From assembly GCA_016845525.1 (NCBI GenBank), contig JAERSQ010000164.1:1-45745 (forward strand): a DNA stretch of 45,745 nt. The letters are read 5' to 3'. Of the stretch, positions 6,979 to 45,745 are shown piece by piece. How positions within the stretch are numbered: the first letter of the stretch is position 1; each line of letters begins with the position of its first letter. The position numbers and the translations under genes are program-made. Below the pieces are notes generated by a model that saw only the letters and a program-made list of their open reading frames with translations, made no database searches and was not told the origin of the DNA. Origin of the DNA: Pseudomonadota bacterium. GTDB taxonomy: Bacteria > Pseudomonadota > Gammaproteobacteria > Arenicellales > UBA868.

Positions 6979-8046
6979 CTATACAAAAAACAGGTGCTCA
7001 AGATCTGCGGAGAAATAATCGATGAGCGATTGATTTTTCTTGTTCGCCACACAGTGATGACGACACTCCCGCCGAGGATCGATCCTGAAGAATTTCTCTT
7101 TGTCATTAAACCAGAACTCCGAAAATGACTGATTCTCCAAAGAGCCCAACAATCCCTCCGACGTATACGCTTTGTCCTGGCAGGAATAGACTTTTTGATC
7201 CGCGCCGATAACACAAAGGACTTGCAGATACGGGCACCAGTCGTAGGACTTGTCAAACTTCTCATCCAGTTCATGGTAGGCATCAAAGAGTTCGAAGGAA
7301 TCATCCGTCAATCCCGCTCGGAGTCGTTCCAGTTGGGTACGAACCGCTGAGAAGATGGGCTTGTGATACTGATTACTAATCTTACCGTCATTGCTGGTGA
7401 TGCAGGGCGAAACCTTCACGCTGTTCACGCCAATGTCCTGCAGCTGTTTCACGCTCCTTTCAACGTGTTCCGCGTTATCCCGATCTACGATCAGGCTGAT
7501 GCCTAAATGGCAGTAACCACCGAGGCGTTTAAACGCTCTCAGGTTTTCCATCAGCTTGGTGTGCTCGCCAAGCCTTACGCCCCGATACCGGGAGTAACTG
7601 GCATCATCCCAACCATCAAGGGATACCCTTAACCACGTGCCGTGATGGGCAAAGACCTCAGCAATTTCCCCGAATAGGCGCGCCCCATTGGTCAGACTCG
7701 CAAACCGGATAGGACTGTCTGCCAGCCGCTTTACTGTTTCGAGTAACGGCTTGTAGTAAAACGGGTCTCCACCCCCACTGAACGTAACTGCATGCACGCC
7801 GATAGCCTCCAGGTCGGAGACAATCTCTCTCATCTTCCCAGGAGGAATCTGGTCGCGCTCGACCATATCCGTACCGAGTTCAAGATCCTTTGCCTTGTAA
7901 GCGCAGTACCAGCAGTGGTGTCCACATAAATTCGTCGGCTTGATTCGGATGTGTACGGGCGCGGTTATCGCCGTTCCTTCACGGGGGAGACTCTTAAGTT
8001 TTTCGGGAAAATGAAAAATCTTGTAAGGGGTGTATAAAGTCTTCAT
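6979..8046 (-). CDS. radical SAM protein with SPASM-like C-terminus
   Basis: The 355-residue enzyme carries CGHHCWYC (Cys 41, 45, 48), the CX3CX2C cluster motif, followed by the SAM-binding FSGGGDPF and the barrel strand LRVSLDG. The C-terminal third has further cysteines (CPYLQVLC, YSCQDK, CRHHC) arranged like a SPASM or twitch domain, suggesting auxiliary iron-sulfur clusters. Such proteins modify peptides, proteins or sugars; nothing in the sequence identifies the substrate. It lies 147 bases downstream of ccoI on the same strand, so it may be cotranscribed. No RiPP precursor or transporter is evident beside it. The start is the first in-frame ATG without an obvious ribosome site. Confidence 0.85.
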   Translation of the reverse strand: MKTLYTPYKIFHFPEKLKSLPREGTAITAPVHIRIKPTNLCGHHCWYCAYKAKDLELGTDMVERDQIPPGKMREIVSDLEAIGVHAVTFSGGGDPFYYKPLLETVKRLADSPIRFASLTNGARLFGEIAEVFAHHGTWLRVSLDGWDDASYSRYRGVRLGEHTKLMENLRAFKRLGGYCHLGISLIVDRDNAEHVERSVKQLQDIGVNSVKVSPCITSNDGKISNQYHKPIFSAVRTQLERLRAGLTDDSFELFDAYHELDEKFDKSYDWCPYLQVLCVIGADQKVYSCQDKAYTSEGLLGSLENQSFSEFWFNDKEKFFRIDPRRECRHHCVANKKNQSLIDYFSADLEHLFFV

Positions 8047-8193
8047 CAGGCAGGATCATGCTGAAAGGCTTGCGCGGATCATAGACAGCTTTCAGGAAGT
8101 CGGGATGATCCAGGACATCTTTCGATCGAAAAATCTTCCAGGCGGATGAGACCGCCGAAGAAACAATCAGTGCAGCATCGCTGCTGCGCGCCG

Positions 8194-10653
8194 TTATCTC
8201 AGACGCAGTGCGTTGGCGATCACGATCAGCGAACTGGCTGACATCCCGATGGCTGCCAGCCAGGGCGGTACGAATCCCAGCGCTGCAGCTGGAAGAGCGC
8301 TGAGGTTGTAGGCCAGGGCCCAAGTCAGGTTCTGACGGATCACTCTGAGGGTCCGCCGCCCGGCAAGGATGGCCTGGGCGATCATTCGGGTGTCTTCGTT
8401 CAGGATCACGACATCGGCCGCTGCGGCGGCTAATGGAGATGCCTGCGCAACTGCGATCGAGACATCTGCTCCTGCAAGGACCGGCGCATCATTAACGCCA
8501 TCGCCCACCATCGCCACGCGCTCTCCCTGGACCTGGTCCTGATGGACGGCCCGCAGTTTGTCTCCCGGAGACAGCTGCCAACGGGCAGACTTGATTTCAA
8601 GGGCGTCGGCCACTGCCAATACCGGTCCACGCTGATCGCCGGAAAGGATCGATATCTCTAGCCCGAGCTCTCGCAGCTGCCCGATCAATCGGGGTGCCTC
8701 GTCCCGGATTTCATCTGAAAAAACGAATTCGCCGAGAATCCGGCCAGCATCAGCCAGAAACACCGTGGTGCGTGATCCCGCCTCATCGGAGTTTGCTTCC
8801 AGGCCGGTTTTCTCTGCGATGAAATGCGGCGAGCCGATGTAATAGGGCTTGCCCAGGATGTGGGCACAGATCCCTCCGCCAGGCTCGTTCACAACATTTT
8901 CGACGCGGGGTAAATCAAGATTGACTCCAGCGCGACTGATAGCCCTGCCCACGGGGTGCTCGCTCTGCTGTTCGAGCGCCGCGGCGACCTCAAGGACATC
9001 ATTACGGTGAACGCCCTCGGCGGTTCTGATGGCCGAGCAGCGTAGTTCGCCAAGGGTTAAGGTCCCTGTTTTATCGAAGACGACTTTGCTGATCCGGGCC
9101 AGGGTCTCAAGAGTCCGTGCTCGGGTCAGCAATACCCCTGCTTTCATAAGCCGTCCAACGGTCGCGGTTACCGCTGCAGGGGTCGCAAGCGAGAGAGCAC
9201 ACGGGCAGGACACCACAAGCACCGACACGGTAATCGACAGCCAGTCCGGATTGCCGGCCCGCCACCAGTATCCCGCCACCCCGGCCGCGATTAACAGAAC
9301 CGCCATGACAAAGAACCCGCTTATCCGGTCAGCCAGCTGGGAGACACGGGGTTTGCCGGTCAGCGCCCGATCCAGCAGCTGCTGGATCTGCGACAGCGCG
9401 GAATCGGCGCCGGTCCGCGTGACTTGAACCGTGATCGGACTGTCGATATTGATACTGCCGCCGATCACCTCGTCTGCCTCACGTCTCGGCTGCGGCATGG
9501 CTTCCCCGGTAAGAATGGCTTCATCCACCGTGGATCGGCCGGCAACAACAACCCCGTCAGCGGGAACCACCTCGCCAGGCCGGACAAGCACCCGATCACC
9601 GGGGCTCAACTCAACTGCCGCAATCTGTTCGACATCACCGTCAGCACACAAACGGGCCGCGCCGGCAGGACGGGCCTGGCCAATGACATCGGCAGCATCG
9701 GCCGCACTTTTGCGCGCCCCGAGTTCCAGGGTTCGCGTGCCGAGCACCAGAAAGACAAACATGCAGATCGAATCAAAATAGACTTCGCCCTGTCCAGTTG
9801 CCACTGAGAAAGCACTTGCAGCGAAGGCAAGAGAGATACCTATCGTGACTGGTACATCCATGCCGGCCCGGCGAACGGAAAGATCCCGCCAGGCAGCTAT
9901 GAAGAACGGCTGAGCTGAATAGAAAAGCACCGGCAACGTCATCAGCATGCTCAGTTTCTGGAAGAAATCACGATAGCGCTCTTCCATGCCCGTCCACACT
10001 CCCGCATACATGGCTACCGCCAGAATCATCACCTGCATCCCCAGAGCGCCCGCTACTGCCAGACGTCTCAGCATTTTTCTGCGCTCGACATCCAGCAGTT
10101 GCTGTTGGCGGCCAGGATCATAGGGATGTGCCTCATAGCCGATGGCACGTACCGCCTGCATGATCTCGCTTAACCGGATCCTGTCGTTATCCCAACGGAT
10201 CCGGGCCCGGTGCGTTGCATAGTTAACCTGCACATCCAGCACCCCAGGCAGATTCCGCAGATGGTGTTCGTTGAGCCAGACACAGGCGGCGCAATGGATA
10301 CCCTCAAGAATCAGGGCGGCTTCACGACCTCCGTCGACAACAGCAGTCACGAAATTTTTCTGGACCAGTGGGTTATCAAACACGCCGAATTGGCTGGGCG
10401 ACCCGGGAAAAGCGTCACGCGCCGTCGACGCCGATGCTGTCCGCTCCCGGTAATAACGAGACAAGCCGGCGCTTGAAATAGCCTGTGCGACTGCCGCGCA
10501 GCCTGCACAGCACATGGATCGGGGCTGGCCGTCGATCTTGGCAACGAACGCCGCGTTCCCAGGTGGGACCGGCAGTCCGCAATGAAAACAATCCTCATCC
10601 GGCCGGGAGTCGAACCGGCCCGGATGTTCCGAGACGACAGGGGTGTCAGACAC
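8194..10653 (-). CDS. ccoI: CcoI/FixI, copper-translocating P-type ATPase for cbb3 oxidase assembly
   Basis: This roughly 819-residue ATPase begins with a cysteine-rich region (CFHCGLPVP, MCCAGC), then an HMA copper-binding domain (GIHCAACVW). Next come eight hydrophobic segments with the copper site SCPCALS, the phosphorylation motif DKTGTLT and the hinge MVGDGVNDAP. CcoI supplies copper to CcoN in the membrane. The reading frame can be extended by a TTG at 10665, but GTG 10653 is preferred because the TTG lies 3 bases from an FNR box. Neither start has a good Shine-Dalgarno. It is transcribed away from ccoN, and the position of its own promoter is unclear. Confidence 0.95.
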   Translation of the reverse strand: MSDTPVVSEHPGRFDSRPDEDCFHCGLPVPPGNAAFVAKIDGQPRSMCCAGCAAVAQAISSAGLSRYYRERTASASTARDAFPGSPSQFGVFDNPLVQKNFVTAVVDGGREAALILEGIHCAACVWLNEHHLRNLPGVLDVQVNYATHRARIRWDNDRIRLSEIMQAVRAIGYEAHPYDPGRQQQLLDVERRKMLRRLAVAGALGMQVMILAVAMYAGVWTGMEERYRDFFQKLSMLMTLPVLFYSAQPFFIAAWRDLSVRRAGMDVPVTIGISLAFAASAFSVATGQGEVYFDSICMFVFLVLGTRTLELGARKSAADAADVIGQARPAGAARLCADGDVEQIAAVELSPGDRVLVRPGEVVPADGVVVAGRSTVDEAILTGEAMPQPRREADEVIGGSINIDSPITVQVTRTGADSALSQIQQLLDRALTGKPRVSQLADRISGFFVMAVLLIAAGVAGYWWRAGNPDWLSITVSVLVVSCPCALSLATPAAVTATVGRLMKAGVLLTRARTLETLARISKVVFDKTGTLTLGELRCSAIRTAEGVHRNDVLEVAAALEQQSEHPVGRAISRAGVNLDLPRVENVVNEPGGGICAHILGKPYYIGSPHFIAEKTGLEANSDEAGSRTTVFLADAGRILGEFVFSDEIRDEAPRLIGQLRELGLEISILSGDQRGPVLAVADALEIKSARWQLSPGDKLRAVHQDQVQGERVAMVGDGVNDAPVLAGADVSIAVAQASPLAAAAADVVILNEDTRMIAQAILAGRRTLRVIRQNLTWALAYNLSALPAAALGFVPPWLAAIGMSASSLIVIANALRLR

Positions 10654-36150: not shown

Positions 36151-37452
36151 ATGACAGAACGATTTGATGCCGTCGTGATCGGTGCTGGAATCATTGGCAC
36201 CTCGATTGCATTTTCGATGAGTAAAGCAGGCTGGCAGGTGCTCGTGGTGGATCCACTTGCCGGCTCCGGTCAGGGTGCGACGAGCAGTTCCGTTGCGATG
36301 GTGCGCACGCAGTACTCCACCCTGGAAGGGTCGGCGCTGGCCTGGGAGGGATTTCACTGCTGGCAGGACTGGACCGGATTTCTCAATCTTGAGTCTGATG
36401 AGCCCATCGCACCGTTTCATCTTGCAGGTGTCCTGACTTTCAAGACCGCGAATAACGGCTTTTTGGAACGCCAGCTGGAATTCTCGCGCCAGTTGGGCAT
36501 TCCTTTTGAGTTCTGGTCTATCTCCAGACTGCAAAGCCTTTTTCCCAGCTGGGATCTCTCCAGTTTCGGACCGCCTGTCATTTCGGACGATGCCGGGTTC
36601 GGTGTCCGCTCAGATGCGGAGCTTGAGAGTGTCTTTTTCCCCAAGGGGGGCTATTGTCCCGATCCGCAGCTCGCGGCGCACAACCTGCAGCGCGCTGCTG
36701 AACAACACGGTGCACAGTTTCGTTTTGGCGAATCGGTAACCGGTATCGATACGAGCGATCACCATGTGAGCGCCGTGACGCTGTCAGGGGGTGAGCGCAT
36801 TTCCTGCCGGGTCGCCGTCAACGCAGCCGGACCGCATGGGCAAAACATTAACGCCCTTGCCGATCCGAACGGTCAACACCGCATCCGGACACGGGTCGCT
36901 CGGCACGAAGTGACCCACCTTCGCTGTGCGGACGCCGCGACGAGTGATGCGTCCCGCATCATGCTGTACGACACCGACATCGGGGGTTACATCCGGGCAG
37001 ACACCGGCGACAACATCCTTGCAGGAAGCCTGGGCGCGCGGGGAGAAGTTGAGTTGGCGGCCGATCCGGATGACTTTGACCGAAATCTCTCCCCGCAGAG
37101 CATCGAGCCCTTGTATCGCCTTGCGCAACGGATCCCGACCCTCGGTATTCCCAATACGCTCTCCGGCGTGGCAGACCTTTGGGATGTCAGTGATGACTGG
37201 ATTCCCATCTATGACTGTACCGACGTGGCCGGCTTTTACATGGCGATCGGCACCAGCGGCAACCAATTCAAAACGGCGCCGGCGGTGGGTGAACTGATGA
37301 CGGCTCTAATCAGCGCCTGTGAGCAGGGAACCGATCACGACCATGATCCGGTCTCGTTCCGGCTTCACCGCACCGGCCACGAGATCAATCTCGGGTTCTT
37401 CTCGCGCAACCGCGAACCCAACCCTGCCAGCAGCCTGTCAGTGCTCGGCTGA
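36151..37452 (+). CDS. FAD-dependent oxidoreductase (DAO family)
   Basis: The 433-residue flavoenzyme begins AVVIGAGIIGTSIAFSMSK with an acid ending strand 2 (VVDPLAG) and a conserved GATSSSVAMVRTQY loop. VNAAGPHG and the late FYMAIGTSGNQFKTAP complete the DAO pattern. It resembles sarcosine-oxidase-beta or glycine-oxidase-like enzymes. It lacks the His-containing TTWHSAG motif of the flavoenzyme at 158-1384, so the flavin is probably non-covalent. The substrate is likely an N-substituted amino acid (inference). Confidence 0.82.
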   Translation: MTERFDAVVIGAGIIGTSIAFSMSKAGWQVLVVDPLAGSGQGATSSSVAMVRTQYSTLEGSALAWEGFHCWQDWTGFLNLESDEPIAPFHLAGVLTFKTANNGFLERQLEFSRQLGIPFEFWSISRLQSLFPSWDLSSFGPPVISDDAGFGVRSDAELESVFFPKGGYCPDPQLAAHNLQRAAEQHGAQFRFGESVTGIDTSDHHVSAVTLSGGERISCRVAVNAAGPHGQNINALADPNGQHRIRTRVARHEVTHLRCADAATSDASRIMLYDTDIGGYIRADTGDNILAGSLGARGEVELAADPDDFDRNLSPQSIEPLYRLAQRIPTLGIPNTLSGVADLWDVSDDWIPIYDCTDVAGFYMAIGTSGNQFKTAPAVGELMTALISACEQGTDHDHDPVSFRLHRTGHEINLGFFSRNREPNPASSLSVLG

Positions 37453-37481: not shown

Positions 37482-38849
37482 CTACCCAAATAAGGTATCC
37501 ACGGAGTCCATCTCGGCGAACGAGGTGAGCCGCTCATGCAGCCCAAGGGCCGCGTCGCCCAGAACCGGCTCGGCAAGAGACAGGAATTTACTCTGGTGCA
37601 GATCAGCACTGGGGAAATTTTCAGGCTCCCCACGAGGAATCTCCACGCAGCGGCTCTGACTCGTTCCGTCGCGAAAACGTATGGTCACCTTGCCGCCCAT
37701 CCGTTCAGGATAGATCGCATCCATCTGTGCATCCTCACTGACGTCGATGCGTTCAGCGAGTGACAGCGTTGTTGCGTCTTCGAGATACTTCGCATAATCA
37801 TCCCAGGTCAGATTGCCTGTCTGTGCTGAAACCGCTGCAGTGAAATGCATGGAAAACTGGCCGCCCACTACGCCTTTGGGCTTGCGGCGGAAATCCTGCG
37901 GCAGGGCCGTGAGATCCATACCCTTGCGGGGCAGACCAATGGCGATGTCGGCAATATCGGATTCATGCGCACCGGTTCCGACGATATCCACAATACCGTC
38001 TATGGCCGCATGACTGAACCGGCACGAGGGGTAAGGCTTGACGCCAATCTGGAGTGTTTCCCAATCATCGCCGAGTCCCTTGACGGCTAACTGCGGATCA
38101 GGGTCGGGGGCATAGCTTTTCAGAAAACCCGCATCACCTTCGACCGCATCAGCCGCACCGACAAAGCCCTCTGAAGCAAGCGACGCTGCAATGACTCCGA
38201 CCATGGCGGCATTGCCGACCTGGAAGCGTTTGGTCCAGGCACTGTTGACGAGAAACTGCATGGAGCCGGCCGATTGGCTGAGGCAGATCCCCATCGCCAT
38301 CTCGAGTTGTTGGGCAGAAAGTCCCAACGCGCGCCCGGCAGCAACGGTGGCCCCAAAGGCGCCGGTGGTTGCAGTGGGATGAAAGCCCCGATCATAGTGA
38401 TCCGCGGGTTTGAGCGCCCTGCCGAGTCGGCACATCACCTCATATCCCGCAATCACCCCGGCGAGAACGTTGGCACCGCTCGCGCCCGCCATTTGTCCGG
38501 CAGCCAGGGCTGCCGCCAGTACCGGTGCACTCGGGTGCACGGTTGCCGCAATATGGGTGTCATCAAAATCCAGACTGTGAATCAAAGAGCCGTTGATCAG
38601 CGCCGCGGCAGGAAAAGCATATCCCTTATCGTCGGCAAAAACCGTCCCCCGTCCCGCATCCATACCCATGCGGGCAACGGCAGCCAGCAAGGCCGGGGTC
38701 GACTCGGCCTCTTTTCTTGCCCGAATGGCGACGCCGATACTGTCCGTGACCAGCAAGGCGGCCCGGTCGACGACCTCACGCGGCAGGGCTTGTGTATTTA
38801 CCTCGCTCGCGAATCCACAAAGGGTTGCGGTGACACTCTTATCTTGCAC
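37482..38849 (-). CDS. MmgE/PrpD family protein
   Basis: The 455-residue protein has an N-terminal helical domain with RAALLVTDSIGVAIRA, NGSLIHSLDFDDTH and the HPSAPVLAAALA segment, followed by a smaller C-terminal domain including KPYPSCRFSHAAID. These mark the PrpD/MmgE (2-methylcitrate dehydratase-like) superfamily. Many members are not methylcitrate dehydratases and no prpB/prpC is near. The start is GTG, supported by AAGGAG 7 bases upstream. It probably forms an operon with the enoyl-CoA hydratase gene 48 bases upstream. Confidence 0.9.
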   Translation of the reverse strand: MQDKSVTATLCGFASEVNTQALPREVVDRAALLVTDSIGVAIRARKEAESTPALLAAVARMGMDAGRGTVFADDKGYAFPAAALINGSLIHSLDFDDTHIAATVHPSAPVLAAALAAGQMAGASGANVLAGVIAGYEVMCRLGRALKPADHYDRGFHPTATTGAFGATVAAGRALGLSAQQLEMAMGICLSQSAGSMQFLVNSAWTKRFQVGNAAMVGVIAASLASEGFVGAADAVEGDAGFLKSYAPDPDPQLAVKGLGDDWETLQIGVKPYPSCRFSHAAIDGIVDIVGTGAHESDIADIAIGLPRKGMDLTALPQDFRRKPKGVVGGQFSMHFTAAVSAQTGNLTWDDYAKYLEDATTLSLAERIDVSEDAQMDAIYPERMGGKVTIRFRDGTSQSRCVEIPRGEPENFPSADLHQSKFLSLAEPVLGDAALGLHERLTSFAEMDSVDTLFG

Positions 38850-38897: not shown

Positions 38898-39689
38898 TTA
38901 CTCTCCCGTGAACTGGGCTTTGCGTTTCTCATTGAACGCGGCGATACCTTCGCGGCGATCCTTCGTGGGAACCGTCTTGTTGTACGAAGCAAGCTCAACC
39001 TCGTAATCCTGCTTAAGTGAGGCAAAACCCGCATTGTTGATCGCCTTCAGCGCGCCCTGAATCGCGATCGGGCCGTTATCTGCGATGCGCTGTGCCGTTG
39101 CCCTTACCGACTCCAGCAGGGCTTCCGGCTCACAAAGCTCATTGACCAGTCCCCATTCAAGCGCCTGCTCGGCACTGAAAGGTCTGCCGGTGAGGATGAT
39201 TTCCTTGGCCCTGCGGATACCGACCGCCCGGGGAAGATACTGGGTGCCTGCCATGCCGGGCATGATCCCAAGGGTGGTCTCCGTCAGGGCGAAACGGGCA
39301 TGTTTCGCCGCGTAAGCAAAATCACACGCCAGTGTCAGCTCCGTCCCGCCGCCATAAGCCGCACCGTTAATTGCCCCCAGGATCGGCACCGGGCAGTCCA
39401 TCAGCGCCCGTGCCAGGTCTTCGAATACCACGTGCTGCGCATACCACTCTTCATCGGTCATCCCATGTCGCTGCTTGAGGTCACCGCCTGCACAAAATGC
39501 GCGCTCTCCCGTGCCGGTCAGGATGACACAACGCGTGGTTCTCACACCCGAAACCAATTCGCTGAAAACCGCTAACAACTCCTCAGCCATCCGGGTGTTG
39601 AAGGCATTGGCCACCTCTGGACGGTTCAGTGTGATCCAGGTGAGGTCTCCCTCTTGATCAACAATGATGGTGTCGAAGTTTTCCTTCAT
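38898..39689 (-). CDS. enoyl-CoA hydratase/isomerase
   Basis: The 263-residue crotonase-fold protein has the oxyanion-hole segments AFCAGGDLKQRHG and GAAYGGGTELTLACDFAYA, and the acidic residue region FALTETTLGIMPGMAGTQYLPRAVG typical of hydratases. NRPEVANAFNTRM opens the domain. The sequence is closest in feel to AU-binding/methylglutaconyl-CoA hydratases, but substrate is uncertain. It is first in a probable two-gene operon with MmgE/PrpD. Confidence 0.92.
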   Translation of the reverse strand: MKENFDTIIVDQEGDLTWITLNRPEVANAFNTRMAEELLAVFSELVSGVRTTRCVILTGTGERAFCAGGDLKQRHGMTDEEWYAQHVVFEDLARALMDCPVPILGAINGAAYGGGTELTLACDFAYAAKHARFALTETTLGIMPGMAGTQYLPRAVGIRRAKEIILTGRPFSAEQALEWGLVNELCEPEALLESVRATAQRIADNGPIAIQGALKAINNAGFASLKQDYEVELASYNKTVPTKDRREGIAAFNEKRKAQFTGE

Positions 39690-39770: not shown

Positions 39771-40154
39771 TCAGGATTGTGCGTCCAGTTCTGCGAAAAC
39801 TTTCTTGGCGATTCGGTGGCATTCCACGGCTACCGGCACGCCACAGTAGATGGCGATCTGGTTAAGGATGGCTTTCAACTCATCCCGACTGACGCCGTTC
39901 ACGAGCGCGCCCCTGAAATGCAGTTCCCACTCATGCATACGGTTAAGCGCCGCGATCATTGAGACATTGAGCATGCTGCGGGTTTTTCGATCCAGCGTCT
40001 CATCCCCCCAGACCGCGCCCCAGCAATACTCCGTCAGCAGTTCCTGAAAATCCCGGGCAAACTCGCTGGCGTTAGCCAACGCGTTATCGACATACTCCGC
40101 ACCGAGCACGTCCCGGCGTGTCGCCAGACCCTTGTCAAAACGTTCCTGGTCCAT
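39771..40154 (-). CDS. carboxymuconolactone decarboxylase-like protein (AhpD fold)
   Basis: The 127-residue protein starts MDQERFDKGLATRRDVLG and shows the CMD pattern: DRKTRSMLNVSMIAALNRMHEWELHFRGALVNGVSRDELKAI, then IAIYCGVPVAVECHRIAKK (written here in parts). No CxxC peroxidase motif is present, favouring the decarboxylase-like branch. ATG 40154 follows GGGAG by 7 bases. PcaC-type enzymes act on gamma-carboxymuconolactone, but no pca genes are here. Confidence 0.85.
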   Translation of the reverse strand: MDQERFDKGLATRRDVLGAEYVDNALANASEFARDFQELLTEYCWGAVWGDETLDRKTRSMLNVSMIAALNRMHEWELHFRGALVNGVSRDELKAILNQIAIYCGVPVAVECHRIAKKVFAELDAQS

Positions 40155-40256
40155 AGAAATCTCCCAATAAAAAGAAGTGTGATTATGCCCTGTCGCGCAC
40201 CCGAATGAGACCCGCTTGGGCAAAGGCGGCCTACCCTTATCTGATTCGCTGATACC

Positions 40257-41069
40257 CTAGTGGTTCGCCTTAAGAAACCCGGACAGAATACTGTTCACCG
40301 TTTCGGGCGCCTCCCAGGAGGCCAGGTGATGCAGACCCGGTAAGATCGCAAGTTCAGCATGTTCAAGATCATCTGCCATCCGTCTTGCGATAGCCGGCGT
40401 GGACCCTGGATCGTTCTCTCCCGCGAGCACGAGAGCCGGACACCTTACCTGCTTGAGCGCATCCTGTACGATCACATCGGCCTCAACGAGCGCCGCATAG
40501 GCGTCGGTATAAGCCTTCAGATTATTCGCCAGCAATTTTCTGCGGATCACTTCGACCCGATCGGGAAACTGTTCTTTAAACGGCGCATCGAACCATCTGT
40601 CCATGGCGGCTTGCGCAATCGGAGCAAGACCTTCTTCGCGCGTCAGCTGCAGTCGATGACGCATGCCGGTCAGTTCTTCCTCAGTCCGGCGGTAAACAGT
40701 ATTCATCAGCACCAGTGTCTTCAGGCGGGACGGTGCACCGCCCGCAAAGGCCTGACTGATCACACCTCCCATTGACAGTCCCACCAGGTGCATTTGTGTA
40801 ATGCCCAGGTACGAAAGCAGATCTTCCAGTTGCCGAACAAAGGTTGTGATGTCTTTGACCGGGCGGACCTCAGACCGTCCGTGGCCCAGCATGTCGTAGC
40901 GCAGTACGCAGAACGCTTCTTCCAGCGCAGGCATCTGCGGCTCCCACATGGTGTGATCCAGACCGACGCCATGAATCATGACCACGGGGACCTCGGGAGA
41001 TCCACCGCCCCGTAGGTCATACCAGGTTCCCTCGGGACTAAGTCCGCTCTGGGCGATGTCTTCTCTCAT
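40257..41069 (-). CDS. alpha/beta hydrolase (PcaD/RutD-like)
   Basis: The 270-residue hydrolase has the oxyanion motif VVMIHGVGLDHTMW, YDMLGHGRS, nucleophile Ser99 in GLSMGG, an acid in GENDPGS and catalytic His in GLHHLASWEAP. It resembles 3-oxoadipate enol-lactonase PcaD and RutD. The start ATG 41069 is preferred to a TTG two codons earlier. It is divergent from RidA (83 bases) and in line with the CMD gene 102 bases downstream. Confidence 0.9.
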   Translation of the reverse strand: MREDIAQSGLSPEGTWYDLRGGGSPEVPVVMIHGVGLDHTMWEPQMPALEEAFCVLRYDMLGHGRSEVRPVKDITTFVRQLEDLLSYLGITQMHLVGLSMGGVISQAFAGGAPSRLKTLVLMNTVYRRTEEELTGMRHRLQLTREEGLAPIAQAAMDRWFDAPFKEQFPDRVEVIRRKLLANNLKAYTDAYAALVEADVIVQDALKQVRCPALVLAGENDPGSTPAIARRMADDLEHAELAILPGLHHLASWEAPETVNSILSGFLKANH

Positions 41070-41151
41070 GGGCAAGATTGAACTGGATGTCAGCCGCTTG
41101 AAACAGGTATAACTATGTTACTTTATCCTCGACCCAAGACTGACCGAGCCC

Positions 41152-41547
41152 ATGCCGCAATCCCAAAAAACCATCATCGGCGAACCGCTGGTGATCAATG
41201 GAAGACAACTATCGCTTTCCCGGGCGGTCCGGGCTGGTGATTTCATTTTTCTCACTGGGCAAGTGCCCATGCAGGACGGCCAGGTCATGACATCAGGCAG
41301 CATCGAGGAGCAGACTCGGGCCTGTCTGACCAGCATTCGCGAGACACTGGCCGATGCGGGATGCGGCCTCGAGCATATTGTGAAATCGATGGTATGGCTG
41401 AAATCACGGGAGGACTTTCCCGGTTTCGATTCAGTCTACGCAGAATATTTCCCCAAAGGCCCGCCCGCCCGTTCGGCGCTCGTCAGTGACTTTCTCGTCG
41501 ATATCCGCGTGGAAATCGAGTGCGTGGCCTACGATCCGCAGAGTTAG
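41152..41547 (+). CDS. RidA/YjgF family imine/enamine deaminase
   Basis: The 131-residue protein has FIFLTGQVPMQDGQ, EEQTRACLTSIRETL and PPARSALV with Arg107, the residue that binds the substrate carboxylate in active RidA deaminases. RidA relatives hydrolyse imines, enamines or, in aminophenol pathways, 2-aminomuconate. It starts the plus-strand RidA-ALDH-LLM set. Confidence 0.92.
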   Translation: MPQSQKTIIGEPLVINGRQLSLSRAVRAGDFIFLTGQVPMQDGQVMTSGSIEEQTRACLTSIRETLADAGCGLEHIVKSMVWLKSREDFPGFDSVYAEYFPKGPPARSALVSDFLVDIRVEIECVAYDPQS

Positions 41548-41606
41548 GCAAGCGACGTCCCAGGCGGTCTTTACAATAATTTCAAGGAAAAGAGAGGCAT
41601 AAGCCG

Positions 41607-43091
41607 ATGACTGAATTAACGCGATATCAGATGTACATCAACGGCGAATGGGTAGATGCTGAAAACGGGGCAACGTTTACCAGCGTAAACCCTGCAACGG
41701 GGCAAACCTGGGCGGAAGTCCCCGAGGCCTCAGAAGCGGATATCAACCGCGCGGTGGAAGCCGCACATCATGCGTTTAGCGAAGGTGCCTGGGCCACCAT
41801 GACGCCTACGGCCCGAGGCAAGATGCTGCGCCGTCTTGCTGAGGTGCTGGCTGAACATTCAGAACCACTCGGCCGCTGCGAAACAGTCGATACGGGCAAG
41901 CTCTTTAAGGAAACGCGCTGGCAAGCGAATTACATTTCAGATTTCTTTCAATACTATGCCGGTCTGGCCGACAAGGTCACTGGGGAAACCCTGCCGATCG
42001 ACAAGCCGGACATGATGACGATGACCGTCCGTGAGCCGCTCGGCGTGGTGGCTGCTGTGGTGCCCTGGAATTCCCAATTGTTTCTCGTTGCCGTGAAAAT
42101 CGGCCCCGCACTTGCCGCAGGCAATACAGTGGTGCTGAAAGCCTCTGAACATGCCTCAGCCCCCATGCTTGAATTCGCCAAGGTCTTTGAGGAGGCTGGC
42201 TTCCCGCCGGGGGTTTTCAATGTGGTAACCGGGCACGGTGAGCCCTGCGGCCGCGCACTGACCAGTCACCCGCTGGTGGACCGGGTCAGCTTTACTGGGG
42301 GACCCGAGACCGCCCGGCATGTCATCCGCAACAGTGCTGAAAACTTTGCCGAGGTCTCACTGGAGTTGGGCGGCAAGTCACCGGTCATGGTGTTTGAGGA
42401 TGCTGATCTTGAAAGCGCCGTCAACGGCGTCCTTCTCAGCATCTTCAGCGCGAGCGGACAAAGCTGCGTGGCCGGTTCACGACTGCTGCTGCAGGAATCG
42501 ATCCGCGAAGAGGTCCTGTCCCGGGTTGTCGAAAAGGCGGCCCAGATCAGGATCGGCGACCCGCTGGATGACAACAGTCAGATGGGTCCGTTGGCGACTG
42601 AGGCGCAACTGAGAAATATCCAATCCACGCTGACCGATGCGACAGCAAACGGAGCGGATCTTCGTTACGGCGGAAATACACCGCCGGGGCTGGAAACCGG
42701 CTGGTATATAGAGCCAACGATTGTGGACTGTCCGCACCAGGATATCAGTATCGTCCGAAACGAGCTGTTTGGTCCGGTAGTCAGCGCACTCGGGTTTAAA
42801 GATGAGACCGAAGCTCTTATGCTCGCCAACGATACGAATTTCGGACTGGCGAGCGGCGTCTTCACCCGGGACGTTGGTCGCGCGCTTCGTGTCAGCAAGG
42901 CGATTCGCGCCGGTATCGTCTGGGTCAACACCTATCGGGTGGTGTCGCCCATCGCGCCTTTTGGGGGCTACAAGGACAGCGGCTATGGCCGCGAGTCCGG
43001 CATGGAGGCGATCTATGACTACACGCGTCCCAAGACGGTATGGCTGAATACCTCGTCGGAACCCATCGCGGACCCCTTCGTCATGCGCTGA
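41607..43091 (+). CDS. NAD(P)-dependent aldehyde dehydrogenase
   Basis: The 494-residue enzyme shows VPWNSQLFL (catalytic-site Asn region), the base Glu253 in LELGGKSP, nucleophile Cys287 in GQSCVAG and NELFGPVV. It is a class with a broad range that includes 2-aminomuconate-semialdehyde and betaine-aldehyde dehydrogenases. GAGAGG lies before the ATG. It follows the RidA gene by 59 bases and precedes the LLM gene by 71. Confidence 0.95.
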   Translation: MTELTRYQMYINGEWVDAENGATFTSVNPATGQTWAEVPEASEADINRAVEAAHHAFSEGAWATMTPTARGKMLRRLAEVLAEHSEPLGRCETVDTGKLFKETRWQANYISDFFQYYAGLADKVTGETLPIDKPDMMTMTVREPLGVVAAVVPWNSQLFLVAVKIGPALAAGNTVVLKASEHASAPMLEFAKVFEEAGFPPGVFNVVTGHGEPCGRALTSHPLVDRVSFTGGPETARHVIRNSAENFAEVSLELGGKSPVMVFEDADLESAVNGVLLSIFSASGQSCVAGSRLLLQESIREEVLSRVVEKAAQIRIGDPLDDNSQMGPLATEAQLRNIQSTLTDATANGADLRYGGNTPPGLETGWYIEPTIVDCPHQDISIVRNELFGPVVSALGFKDETEALMLANDTNFGLASGVFTRDVGRALRVSKAIRAGIVWVNTYRVVSPIAPFGGYKDSGYGRESGMEAIYDYTRPKTVWLNTSSEPIADPFVMR

Positions 43092-43162
43092 TCCAGGTCA
43101 GCGACATTCACTGGCGTGGTGATAGACTCGGCTCGCGTAAATCGTTCATTTAAGGGAACCCC

Positions 43163-44206
43163 ATGAAATTTCAGTTAGCCATCAATATGGAGCGTATCGC
43201 CCCGGATACCGATATGGCCGATGTTGAGCGGCATACGCTGGAGATGGTGCAAATGGCCGATGCCGGAGGGTTCCACATTGTCTGGGCTGCGGAACACCAT
43301 GCCCTTGAAATGACGATTGCGCCCAATCCCTTTCAGATTCTGACCTGGTGGGCGGCGCACACTGACCGCATCCGTCTTGGCACAGCAGTGGTCGTAGCAC
43401 CCTACTGGCATCCAATTAATGTTGCGGGCGAAGCCGCGCTGCTGGACTTGTATAGCAATGGCCGGCTGGAGTTCGGAATCGGCTCGGGCGCCTATCAGCG
43501 GGAGTTCGACAGAATGCACGCCGGACTCAAGCAGACCGACGCATGGCGCTACATGCAGGAGATGCTGCCGGCTGTCAAAGCGCTCTGGCAGGGTGACTAC
43601 GCTCATGAGGGTGACTATTGGACCTTTCCGGAAGCCACCTCCGTGCCTAAGCCTTTGCAAAAACCGCATCCTCCGATATGGGTGGCAGCTCGTGCCCCGA
43701 TCACCTACGACTATGCGGTAAAGAACCAGTGCAACATCATGTCATGGCCGCTGACTCGGCCAATGAGTGAGGTCGAGACCTACCTCGGAAGACTGCAGAC
43801 GGCTCTCGATGAAAACCCGGGCCACGCCAGACCGATCTTCTCCGCCATGCGGCATACCTGTGTTTACGACAACAAAGACGACTGGATGGTGCCGATTGAA
43901 GCAGCGCGCCGTCAGTTAGCCCAGTTTGAAAACCTCTTTAAGAATGCTGGGGGTGTCGAAAATGGATTTCCCGCGATGATTGATTTATCTACGCTGGAAA
44001 ACCGGGATGAATATGATCCCAACATGCTGCAGGAGAATCTGATGTTCGGCACGTCTGAAGAAGTCATCAGCAAGCTGGCGCTTTACGACGACCTCGGCGT
44101 CGATCAATTTACCTACTACGCCAGTCTTGGCCTCGGCATGAAAGAGCAAAAACGCTCTTTGGAACTCTTCATCAACGAAGTCATGCCTGAATTCGCAGAG
44201 AACTAG
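43163..44206 (+). CDS. LLM-class flavin-dependent oxidoreductase
   Basis: The 347-residue luciferase-like barrel has DAGGFHIVWAAEHHALEM, the RIRLGTAVVVAPYWHPI strand, and GRLEFGIGSGAYQREFDRM, the FMN/F420-binding family layout. It probably oxygenates a substrate using reduced FMN; no flavin reductase gene is in the window. AAGGGAA precedes the ATG. RutA and related ring- or chain-cleaving monooxygenases are from the same superfamily. Confidence 0.92.
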   Translation: MKFQLAINMERIAPDTDMADVERHTLEMVQMADAGGFHIVWAAEHHALEMTIAPNPFQILTWWAAHTDRIRLGTAVVVAPYWHPINVAGEAALLDLYSNGRLEFGIGSGAYQREFDRMHAGLKQTDAWRYMQEMLPAVKALWQGDYAHEGDYWTFPEATSVPKPLQKPHPPIWVAARAPITYDYAVKNQCNIMSWPLTRPMSEVETYLGRLQTALDENPGHARPIFSAMRHTCVYDNKDDWMVPIEAARRQLAQFENLFKNAGGVENGFPAMIDLSTLENRDEYDPNMLQENLMFGTSEEVISKLALYDDLGVDQFTYYASLGLGMKEQKRSLELFINEVMPEFAEN

Positions 44207-44214
44207 GAGCGCTC

Positions 44215-44248
44215 CTGCGCCGGACCCTGGTTACCGCTCCCGGCGCAG
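44215..44248. terminator. stem-loop between convergent genes
   Basis: CTGCGCCGG (44215-44223) and CCGGCGCAG (44240-44248) pair perfectly over 9 GC-rich bases with a 16-base loop, 9 bases after the LLM stop and 24 before the BKACE stop. No T-run is present, so termination is likely but unproven. Confidence 0.5.
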
Positions 44249-44271
44249 TCTCACTTAAGAGAATCAGGTTT

Positions 44272-45156
44272 TCAGGCGATACCCAATCTCTCCCGGGCCT
44301 GGTCCGCATCGCAAATCTGTCCTCCCAGATCACGGATGATGCGGACGGCCTTCTCGACGAGTTGTGCGTTGCTTGCGGGCACCCCTTTTTCAAGATACAG
44401 GTTGTCTTCAAGACCCACCCGAACGTTCCCACCGAGCAACATGGCCTGCGCCGCCATTGGCATCTGCGTCCGGCTGATGCCGAATCCTGACCAGAACGCG
44501 TCCCGCGGCAACTGACCCACCATCGCCGTCATTGTTGCGGAATCCGCACCGGCGCCCCACGGAATACCCAGGCATACCTGGTACATCGGCCTTCCCTTGA
44601 TCAACCCTTCCGACACCATCTGGTTGGCAAACCGCAAGTGACCCAAATCAAAGACTTCCATCTCGGGCTTGACGCCGATTTCCGCATAGCGCGCAGCCAT
44701 GGCCCGCAGCATATTGGGGGTTTGGATGTAGACGTAGTTGGCGTTGTCGAAGTTGATTGTGCCGCAATCCAGCGTCGCGATATCCGGGCGCAATAACTCC
44801 ACATGCGCCATGCGCTCTTCGGCACTGATGAGATCCGTTCCCTCTGCCGGGACCTCCGGATTCTCGTCATCAACGACCAAGTCCCCACCCATGCCCGCGG
44901 TCAGGTTAATCAGCACATTTCGGCCGCTGTTCCTGACAAGCTCCACAGTCTCTTTAAAAAGATTGATATCACGACTGCCTTTGCCGGTCTCGGGGTCACG
45001 AACATGCAGATGGACAATCGCTGCCCCGGCATCTGCCGCCTCAATTGCTGAGTTGGCGATCTGTTCGGGGGTAACCGGGATCGCCGGATGCTTATCCACC
45101 GTATCTCCCGCGCCCGTTACCGCGCAAGTCACGACTACATCGGTATTCATGGTCAT
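44272..45156 (-). CDS. BKACE family beta-keto acid cleavage enzyme (dehydrocarnitine type)
   Basis: The 294-residue TIM barrel (DUF849) has [20 protein letters not shown] at the start, [14 protein letters not shown] with the zinc-ligand HxH, and GHLRFANQM and GIPWGAG later. BKACE enzymes cleave beta-keto acids with acetyl-CoA. Beside a carnitine dehydrogenase, the likely substrate is 3-dehydrocarnitine, giving acetoacetate and betainyl-CoA, as for CdhC of Pseudomonas. AGGAGG lies 10 bases before the first ATG. Confidence 0.9.
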
Positions 45157-45225
45157 CTCTCGTGTTCCTCCTGAATTTAACTCGGTCTAACTGATTTAGT
45201 GATCAATGGTTTTGTTTTATGTTTG

Positions 45226-45745
45226 TTATCGGTCGGTTGCCATCGGCGGCCAGCCGTCTTCTTCGGGGGGATACCAGTGTTCTTTCAGCACTTTCTGAAT
45301 CTCCGCAAGACAGCGGTCGCGCCGACGCTCCATCTCATCAAAGGCCCGCGCACCGGACTCCACTTCGCAGCCGTCAACGATGCGTTCTTTCAGTTCATCG
45401 GTCAACTCCGGCGCCTTCATATGTGACCAGGGCAATTCCAATGCGGGGCCAAACTGCTCGATGGTATGGCGCATCCCACCCGGACCGCCGCCAAGATGCC
45501 AGGCAAGAAACGTTCCCATGAACGCCCATCGCAAGCCCGGACCCCCGGTGATGGCCGCGTCGATCTCTGCGACCGTAGCAACCCCCTGATCGATAAGATG
45601 CAGAGCTTCACGATAGAGGGATTCCTGCAGGCGGTCTGCGATATAGGCTTCGATCTCCCGACGAACATGCAGCGGCCGCATGCCAAGGGATCGGTAAAAC
45701 GCACCCGCTTGTGCAATAGCAGTCTGTGACGTCTGCTCACTTCCC
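45226..45745 (-). CDS. carnitine 3-dehydrogenase, C-terminal part (partial)
   Basis: The frame is open to the window edge, so the N-terminal NAD-binding domain is missing. The visible 172 residues are the C-terminal 3-hydroxyacyl-CoA dehydrogenase domain: REIEAYIADRLQESLYREAL, IDAAITGGPGLRWAFMG and FLAWHLGGGPGGM, the latter typical of L-carnitine dehydrogenase. It precedes BKACE by 69 bases on the same strand, so the two are probably one operon for carnitine oxidation. Confidence 0.88.
   Translation of the reverse strand, partial: GSEQTSQTAIAQAGAFYRSLGMRPLHVRREIEAYIADRLQESLYREALHLIDQGVATVAEIDAAITGGPGLRWAFMGTFLAWHLGGGPGGMRHTIEQFGPALELPWSHMKAPELTDELKERIVDGCEVESGARAFDEMERRRDRCLAEIQKVLKEHWYPPEEDGWPPMATDR

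Follow-up and report, generated by a model that had tools for sequence, protein, structure and literature searches.

Which compound do the genes at positions 39,771–44,206 of contig JAERSQ010000164.1 break down, and which of them act together? This 45,745-nucleotide stretch (the window) is one contig of a 2.6-Mb metagenome-assembled genome (MAG; completeness 88%, contamination 7.4%) whose nearest relatives bear the names Arenicellales, Acidiferrobacteraceae or Gammaproteobacteria. A preliminary description of it had proposed an undescribed pathway of five genes, encoding a luciferase-like flavin monooxygenase (LLM), a RidA-family protein, an aldehyde dehydrogenase (ALDH), an alpha/beta hydrolase and a carboxymuconolactone-decarboxylase (CMD) family protein. 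Our analyses determined that the hydrolase gene and the divergent RidA-ALDH-LLM genes are a self-contained unit of which the CMD gene is not part. This four-gene unit is a variant of the known trigonelline (Tgn)-type system and, to judge from its sequence relationships, probably encodes a pathway of that type for an N-methylated pyridine carboxylate. The genes concerned are as follows:

40257..41075, minus strand: alpha/beta hydrolase, PcaD-like, with a proposed TgnD-like role (profile models, motifs, and co-loss in locus L156)
41076..41151: divergent control region (76 bases; 82 bases with the hydrolase ATG at 41069)
41152..41547, plus strand: RidA-family imine/enamine deaminase (PARS and VEIE motifs; co-occurrence with the LLM)
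41607..43091, plus strand: ALDH, TgnC-like (56–58% identity)
43163..44206, plus strand: LLM flavin monooxygenase, TgnB-like, in its own clade (41% identity)
39771..40154 (open reading frame to 40223), minus strand: CMD family protein, a neighbour outside the four-gene unit

All five open reading frames of the preliminary description are intact and its coordinates for them are correct, as is the divergent arrangement of the two gene groups. The gap that separates them exists as described, although its size is one of the two lengths given above, depending on whether the hydrolase begins at TTG or ATG, rather than 83 bases. The CMD gene most likely starts at ATG 40154, which is preceded by GGGAG, rather than at 40223. 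The catalytic motifs are intact in the ALDH (Cys287 and ELGGK), the hydrolase (GLSMGG, D222 and His249/250) and the RidA protein. The control region contains a TA.TTTA-like stretch found again in relatives; a sigma-70 consensus scan of the region gave no match, and the promoter and terminator scan revealed nothing exceeding chance. A second contig in the MAG (G000:C97) is 92% identical to window positions 41489–45745 and probably represents another strain in the bin.

The membership of the unit was established from a survey of 20 genomes of the genus, in which an LLM was counted as present whether whole or truncated at the end of a contig. An LLM orthologue was found in 16 of these genomes, and a RidA orthologue in exactly those 16 and in none of the other four. 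Genome G015 (locus L156; 95% complete) is without the hydrolase, RidA and ALDH genes, retains no more than a 73-residue remnant of the LLM, and has kept both flanks: the CMD gene with genes for an enoyl-CoA hydratase (ECH), an MmgE/PrpD protein and a DAO-family amine oxidase on one side, and BKACE, carnitine-dehydrogenase (CDH)-like and CaiD-like genes on the other. In addition, G021 (L158) has DAO-ECH-BKACE-CDH-CaiD together and the unit absent, while in G020 the unit (L159, freestanding) and the BKACE module (L157) are on separate contigs. Therefore, the co-occurrence, the block loss in L156 and the separations in L158 and L157/L159 together define a unit of four genes, with the CMD gene belonging elsewhere. 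Conservation of the proposed five-gene set across genomes thus holds for the hydrolase, RidA, ALDH and LLM, which travel together, and fails for CMD, which in L156 stays with ECH-PrpD-DAO. Beyond the genus, where CMD is absent in most relatives, alphaproteobacterial loci extending 6 kb or more to either side of the LLM numbered 31, of which 28 contained an ALDH, 26 the hydrolase, 21 RidA and three CMD. In Acidimicrobiia the set has mostly shrunk to the LLM with or without the hydrolase; the Chloroflexota sets lack RidA. A thiamine pyrophosphate (TPP) enzyme adjoins the hydrolase, ALDH and LLM, with RidA missing, in loci of Chloroflexota, Acidimicrobiia and one order relative (L086 6317–8002, L084 8247–10004 and L136 14851–16542); that of L086 is sulfoacetaldehyde-acetyltransferase-like, and those of L084 and L136 were judged by first-residue resemblance.

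As far as sequence comparison can tell, the closest known system is the Tgn pathway, and neither of the two parallels drawn by the preliminary description, Rut pyrimidine breakdown and 2-aminomuconate metabolism. An annotated trigonelline cluster in Acinetobacter sp. PK01 (L110) comprises genes for an AA_synth protein, a hydrolase, the flavin reductase tgnA, the LLM tgnB and the ALDH tgnC. The window ALDH has 56–58% identity to TgnC-type enzymes, occupies an adjacent branch in the ALDH tree and resembles annotated TgnC more than the ALDHs found in other LLM clusters; on plasmids, its nearest relatives outside its own clade adjoin Tgn-type LLM genes. The window LLM is 41% identical to annotated TgnB over its full length and falls in a separate supported clade (100/98), the Tgn clade (100/100) and a rhizobial clade (100/99) being the others in the tree. 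Its predicted structure (pLDDT 83) has the luciferase fold and matches bacterial luciferase and flavin monooxygenases, and its best NCBIfam model suggests F420 dependence. Rhodobacterales loci with a window-clade LLM also carry a flavin reductase (37–41% identity to TgnA-like proteins) and AA_synth (61–62%). A betaine-aldehyde-dehydrogenase (BADH) model is the best match of TgnC and the window ALDH alike, its cut-off being reached by neither (504.6 of 668.6 bits for the window ALDH), and the window hydrolase and the TgnD-like hydrolase have the same PcaD-like best models; because these models are shared, the family names BADH and PcaD are uninformative. In four genus members (L123–L126), a second LLM (~59% identity) accompanies a rhizobial-type ALDH and hydrolase in another Tgn-like cluster.

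Other systems were compared as well. The RutC and RutD models scored 46.6 of 169.1 and 75.8 of 238.5 bits, both far under cut-off, no RutA model was among the LLM matches listed, and neither rutB nor a flavin reductase is among the window genes examined, in keeping with the absences reported in the preliminary description. Rut-like ring cleavage of a pyrimidine, or of another non-methylated N-heterocycle, to which the joint presence of an LLM, RidA and alpha/beta hydrolase might point, is highly improbable given those scores and the kinship of the ALDH to TgnC. The PcaC and PcaD equivalog cut-offs were likewise not reached (143.7 of 155.7 and 177.1 of 255.85 bits), and both the Rut and the Pca assignments were rejected on these scores. 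RidA matched structure 6izh, the comparison for a 2-aminomuconate deaminase type, weakly (44 bits), below many other RidA chains.

How might the four proteins work together? The biochemistry of the Acinetobacter trigonelline pathway, reportedly described by Perchat et al. in 2018, is the source of the chemistry that we use as an analogy, and from it, together with the observed gene set, conservation, Tgn kinship and intact motifs, we infer both the substrate and every chemical step. The LLM would use reduced flavin and O2 to break the C5–C6 bond of the ring, and the N-formyl-N-methyl enamine aldehyde so formed would be oxidized to the acid by the ALDH. The hydrolase would then remove formate from this N-formyl enamine acid, and RidA would hydrolyse the resulting enamine/2-imino acid to a 2-keto acid and methylamine. 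RidA enzymes hydrolyse 2-imino acids, and a RidA step would fit homarine (N-methylpicolinate) best because the carboxylate next to its nitrogen would give an N-methyl 2-imino acid (the enamine/imine of 2-oxoglutarate), so that 2-oxoglutarate would be the keto acid formed. We tentatively put homarine forward as the most likely substrate. The proposed route needs no decarboxylation, which agrees with the position of CMD outside the unit; the outline of the preliminary description (flavin oxygenation of a nitrogen compound, deamination by RidA, aldehyde oxidation and hydrolysis) also agrees with the Tgn-type route. Support for homarine also comes from Ruegeria pomeroyi, which draws it down within hours (PMC12817926) and whose apparent DSS-3 genome (G106) has a single TgnB-like LLM, of the window clade. 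A 2021 statement that R. pomeroyi grows better on trigonelline than on homarine (PMC8269262) was withdrawn in the authors' correction (PMC10134881) and was not used.

Several observations weigh against a Tgn-type route for homarine. Many fixed positions distinguish the LLM from TgnB, and the window hydrolase has a low identity of 28–32% to TgnD. A linked TgnA flavin reductase is absent from the Arenicellales-like loci, though present in alphaproteobacterial relatives; the window genome has only one, weakly related, reductase gene, and a search of five genus genomes for a Tgn-like flavin reductase was empty. A search for AA_synth in the genus also found no match, with the positive control of that search empty as well. 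In the alphaproteobacteria, CaiD/CDH-like genes and a flavin reductase often fused to a CoA-transferase share an operon with the unit, features for which a plain homarine route would have no need. Finally, the reported homarine route uses Mgd (PMC13390433), which agrees with methylamine release but would agree with direct formation of N-methylglutamate too.

Could the substrate instead be trigonelline itself, with the window clade simply a divergent form of Tgn? The homology to TgnB and TgnC would be expected in that case, and a CMD-family gene adjoins one annotated tgn cluster as well as the window unit. However, CMD lies outside the unit, RidA was not found in the Tgn clusters read, and the fixed differences of the LLM to the Tgn clade count here too. 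In addition, Ruegeria conchae and R. faecimaris hold both a Tgn-clade and a window-clade LLM, for which reason the latter probably has a substrate other than trigonelline, and we regard trigonelline as quite unlikely.

A different question is posed by the genes that flank the unit, of which the last two listed were absent from the preliminary description:

36151..37452, plus strand: DAO-family FAD amine oxidase, adjoining module
37482..38849, minus strand: MmgE/PrpD family protein, adjoining module
38898..39689, minus strand: ECH family protein, adjoining module
44272..45156, minus strand: BKACE
45226..45744, minus strand: CDH-like gene, C-terminal part, cut by the window edge

In relatives and in MAG contig C97, the CDH-like gene is followed by genes for a CaiD-like hydratase, an acyl-CoA dehydrogenase (ACAD) and an ADP-forming-type CoA ligase. 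Together, the BKACE, CDH-like, CaiD-like, ACAD and ligase genes form a separable carnitine/gamma-butyrobetaine-like module whose coupling to the unit is unproven. Their products are 44–66% identical between the window's relatives and Parasedimentitalea, and the association of module and LLM recurs in roseobacters, Aminobacter and Alsobacter (no BKACE in the locus of the last). The suggestion that ECH and PrpD feed products into CoA metabolism is also unproven, both going with the carnitine-like module in L156 and ECH also in L158. The curated cut-off for carnitine dehydrogenase was not reached (397.8 of 414 bits in L025, 305.5 in L105), and separate carnitine-dehydrogenase and BKACE genes occur elsewhere in the genus, as does a canonical carnitine 3-dehydrogenase, above the curated cut-off, elsewhere in the apparent DSS-3 genome. 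The idea that the LLM unit itself serves to degrade carnitine was rejected on account of these other genes and the separability of the modules. In one genus member (L145 561–8494), a copper amine oxidase, Rieske oxygenase, homocysteine methyltransferase and BKACE-CDH pair are clustered, perhaps as the genus's ordinary carnitine or methylamine genes.

A link between unit and module is nevertheless seen in alphaproteobacteria. Of the 19 loci there that have CaiD and CDH, 18 pair the flavin reductase with a CoA-transferase, compared with one of the 12 loci without them (Fisher p 1.6e-6, uncorrected for kinship), and this recurring link argues for co-regulation or a shared pathway. In L092, L102 and L105, the loci examined for this, transferase and reductase are fused into a single protein. 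The L105 fusion (8028–10151, minus strand; 707 residues) joins a family III CoA-transferase, which tracks the CaiD and CDH genes and whose nearest curated model is succinyl-CoA:mesaconate CoA-transferase, to a flavin reductase domain. Possibly, then, a single pathway serves an aliphatic quaternary amine: the LLM, RidA and ALDH would make 4-trimethylaminobutyrate or a homologue, and the enzymes of the module (ligase, ACAD, CaiD-like, CDH-like and BKACE) would convert this to a betaine-CoA and acetoacetate. This has a modest chance of being correct, as CaiD- and CDH-like genes directly follow the LLM in Rhodobacterales and in Defluviimonas (there with no ALDH nearby) and the ALDH scores as BADH-like. 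However, annotated TgnC is equally BADH-like, the CoA module persists in L156 and L158 where the unit is absent, the unit occurs in L159 and in Tabrizicola/Rhodobacter loci that lack the module, and there are the other carnitine-dehydrogenase and BKACE genes already described. It is also rather unlikely that unit and module constitute a single, so far undescribed pathway for a methylated-nitrogen osmolyte that has yet to be recognised as a substrate of bacteria. In such a pathway, the acid made by a Tgn-type flavin oxygenase would enter CoA-dependent, carnitine-like chemistry (including, in alphaproteobacteria, the CoA-transferase–flavin reductase fusion).

The Tgn-type unit matters beyond this genome because N-methylated osmolytes contribute to the dissolved organic nitrogen released by algae, and RidA-ALDH-LLM plus the hydrolase as a marker set would allow their turnover to be traced. 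Arenicellales-like MAGs and roseobacters widely carry the set, Acidimicrobiia and Chloroflexota have shortened forms of it, and the addition of RidA offers a simple test of how the ring-opened imino acid is hydrolysed. That the pathway is undescribed is doubtful since the Tgn pathway is annotated and homarine catabolism was published in 2026 (Ferrer-Gonzalez et al. 2026, Nat Microbiol 11:1531, cited in PMC13390433). The 2026 paper may already describe this same pathway; if it covers these genes, the pathway is already known.

Comparison with known systems places the unit as follows. Homologues of each of the carnitine/gamma-butyrobetaine degradation genes CDH, BKACE and CaiD are present in the adjacent module, whereas the CDH and CaiD scores are under curated cut-offs. 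The Agrobacterium/Rhizobium clusters (L106–L109; flavin reductase-ALDH-LLM-hydrolase-CMD) have an LLM 50% identical to that of the window and the hydrolase then CMD in the same order, but have no RidA inside, a more distant ALDH, and a betaine or amino-acid ABC transporter. The Tgn pathway (TgnA–TgnD) shares the LLM oxygenase, ALDH and alpha/beta hydrolase families with the window unit, and the flavin reductase and AA_synth with its alphaproteobacterial relatives; the window unit differs in its additional RidA, its LLM clade and its adjoining carnitine-like module, and its genus in lacking linkage to the flavin reductase and AA_synth. With homarine catabolism the unit shares the expected substrate class, and the two gene sets may be identical.

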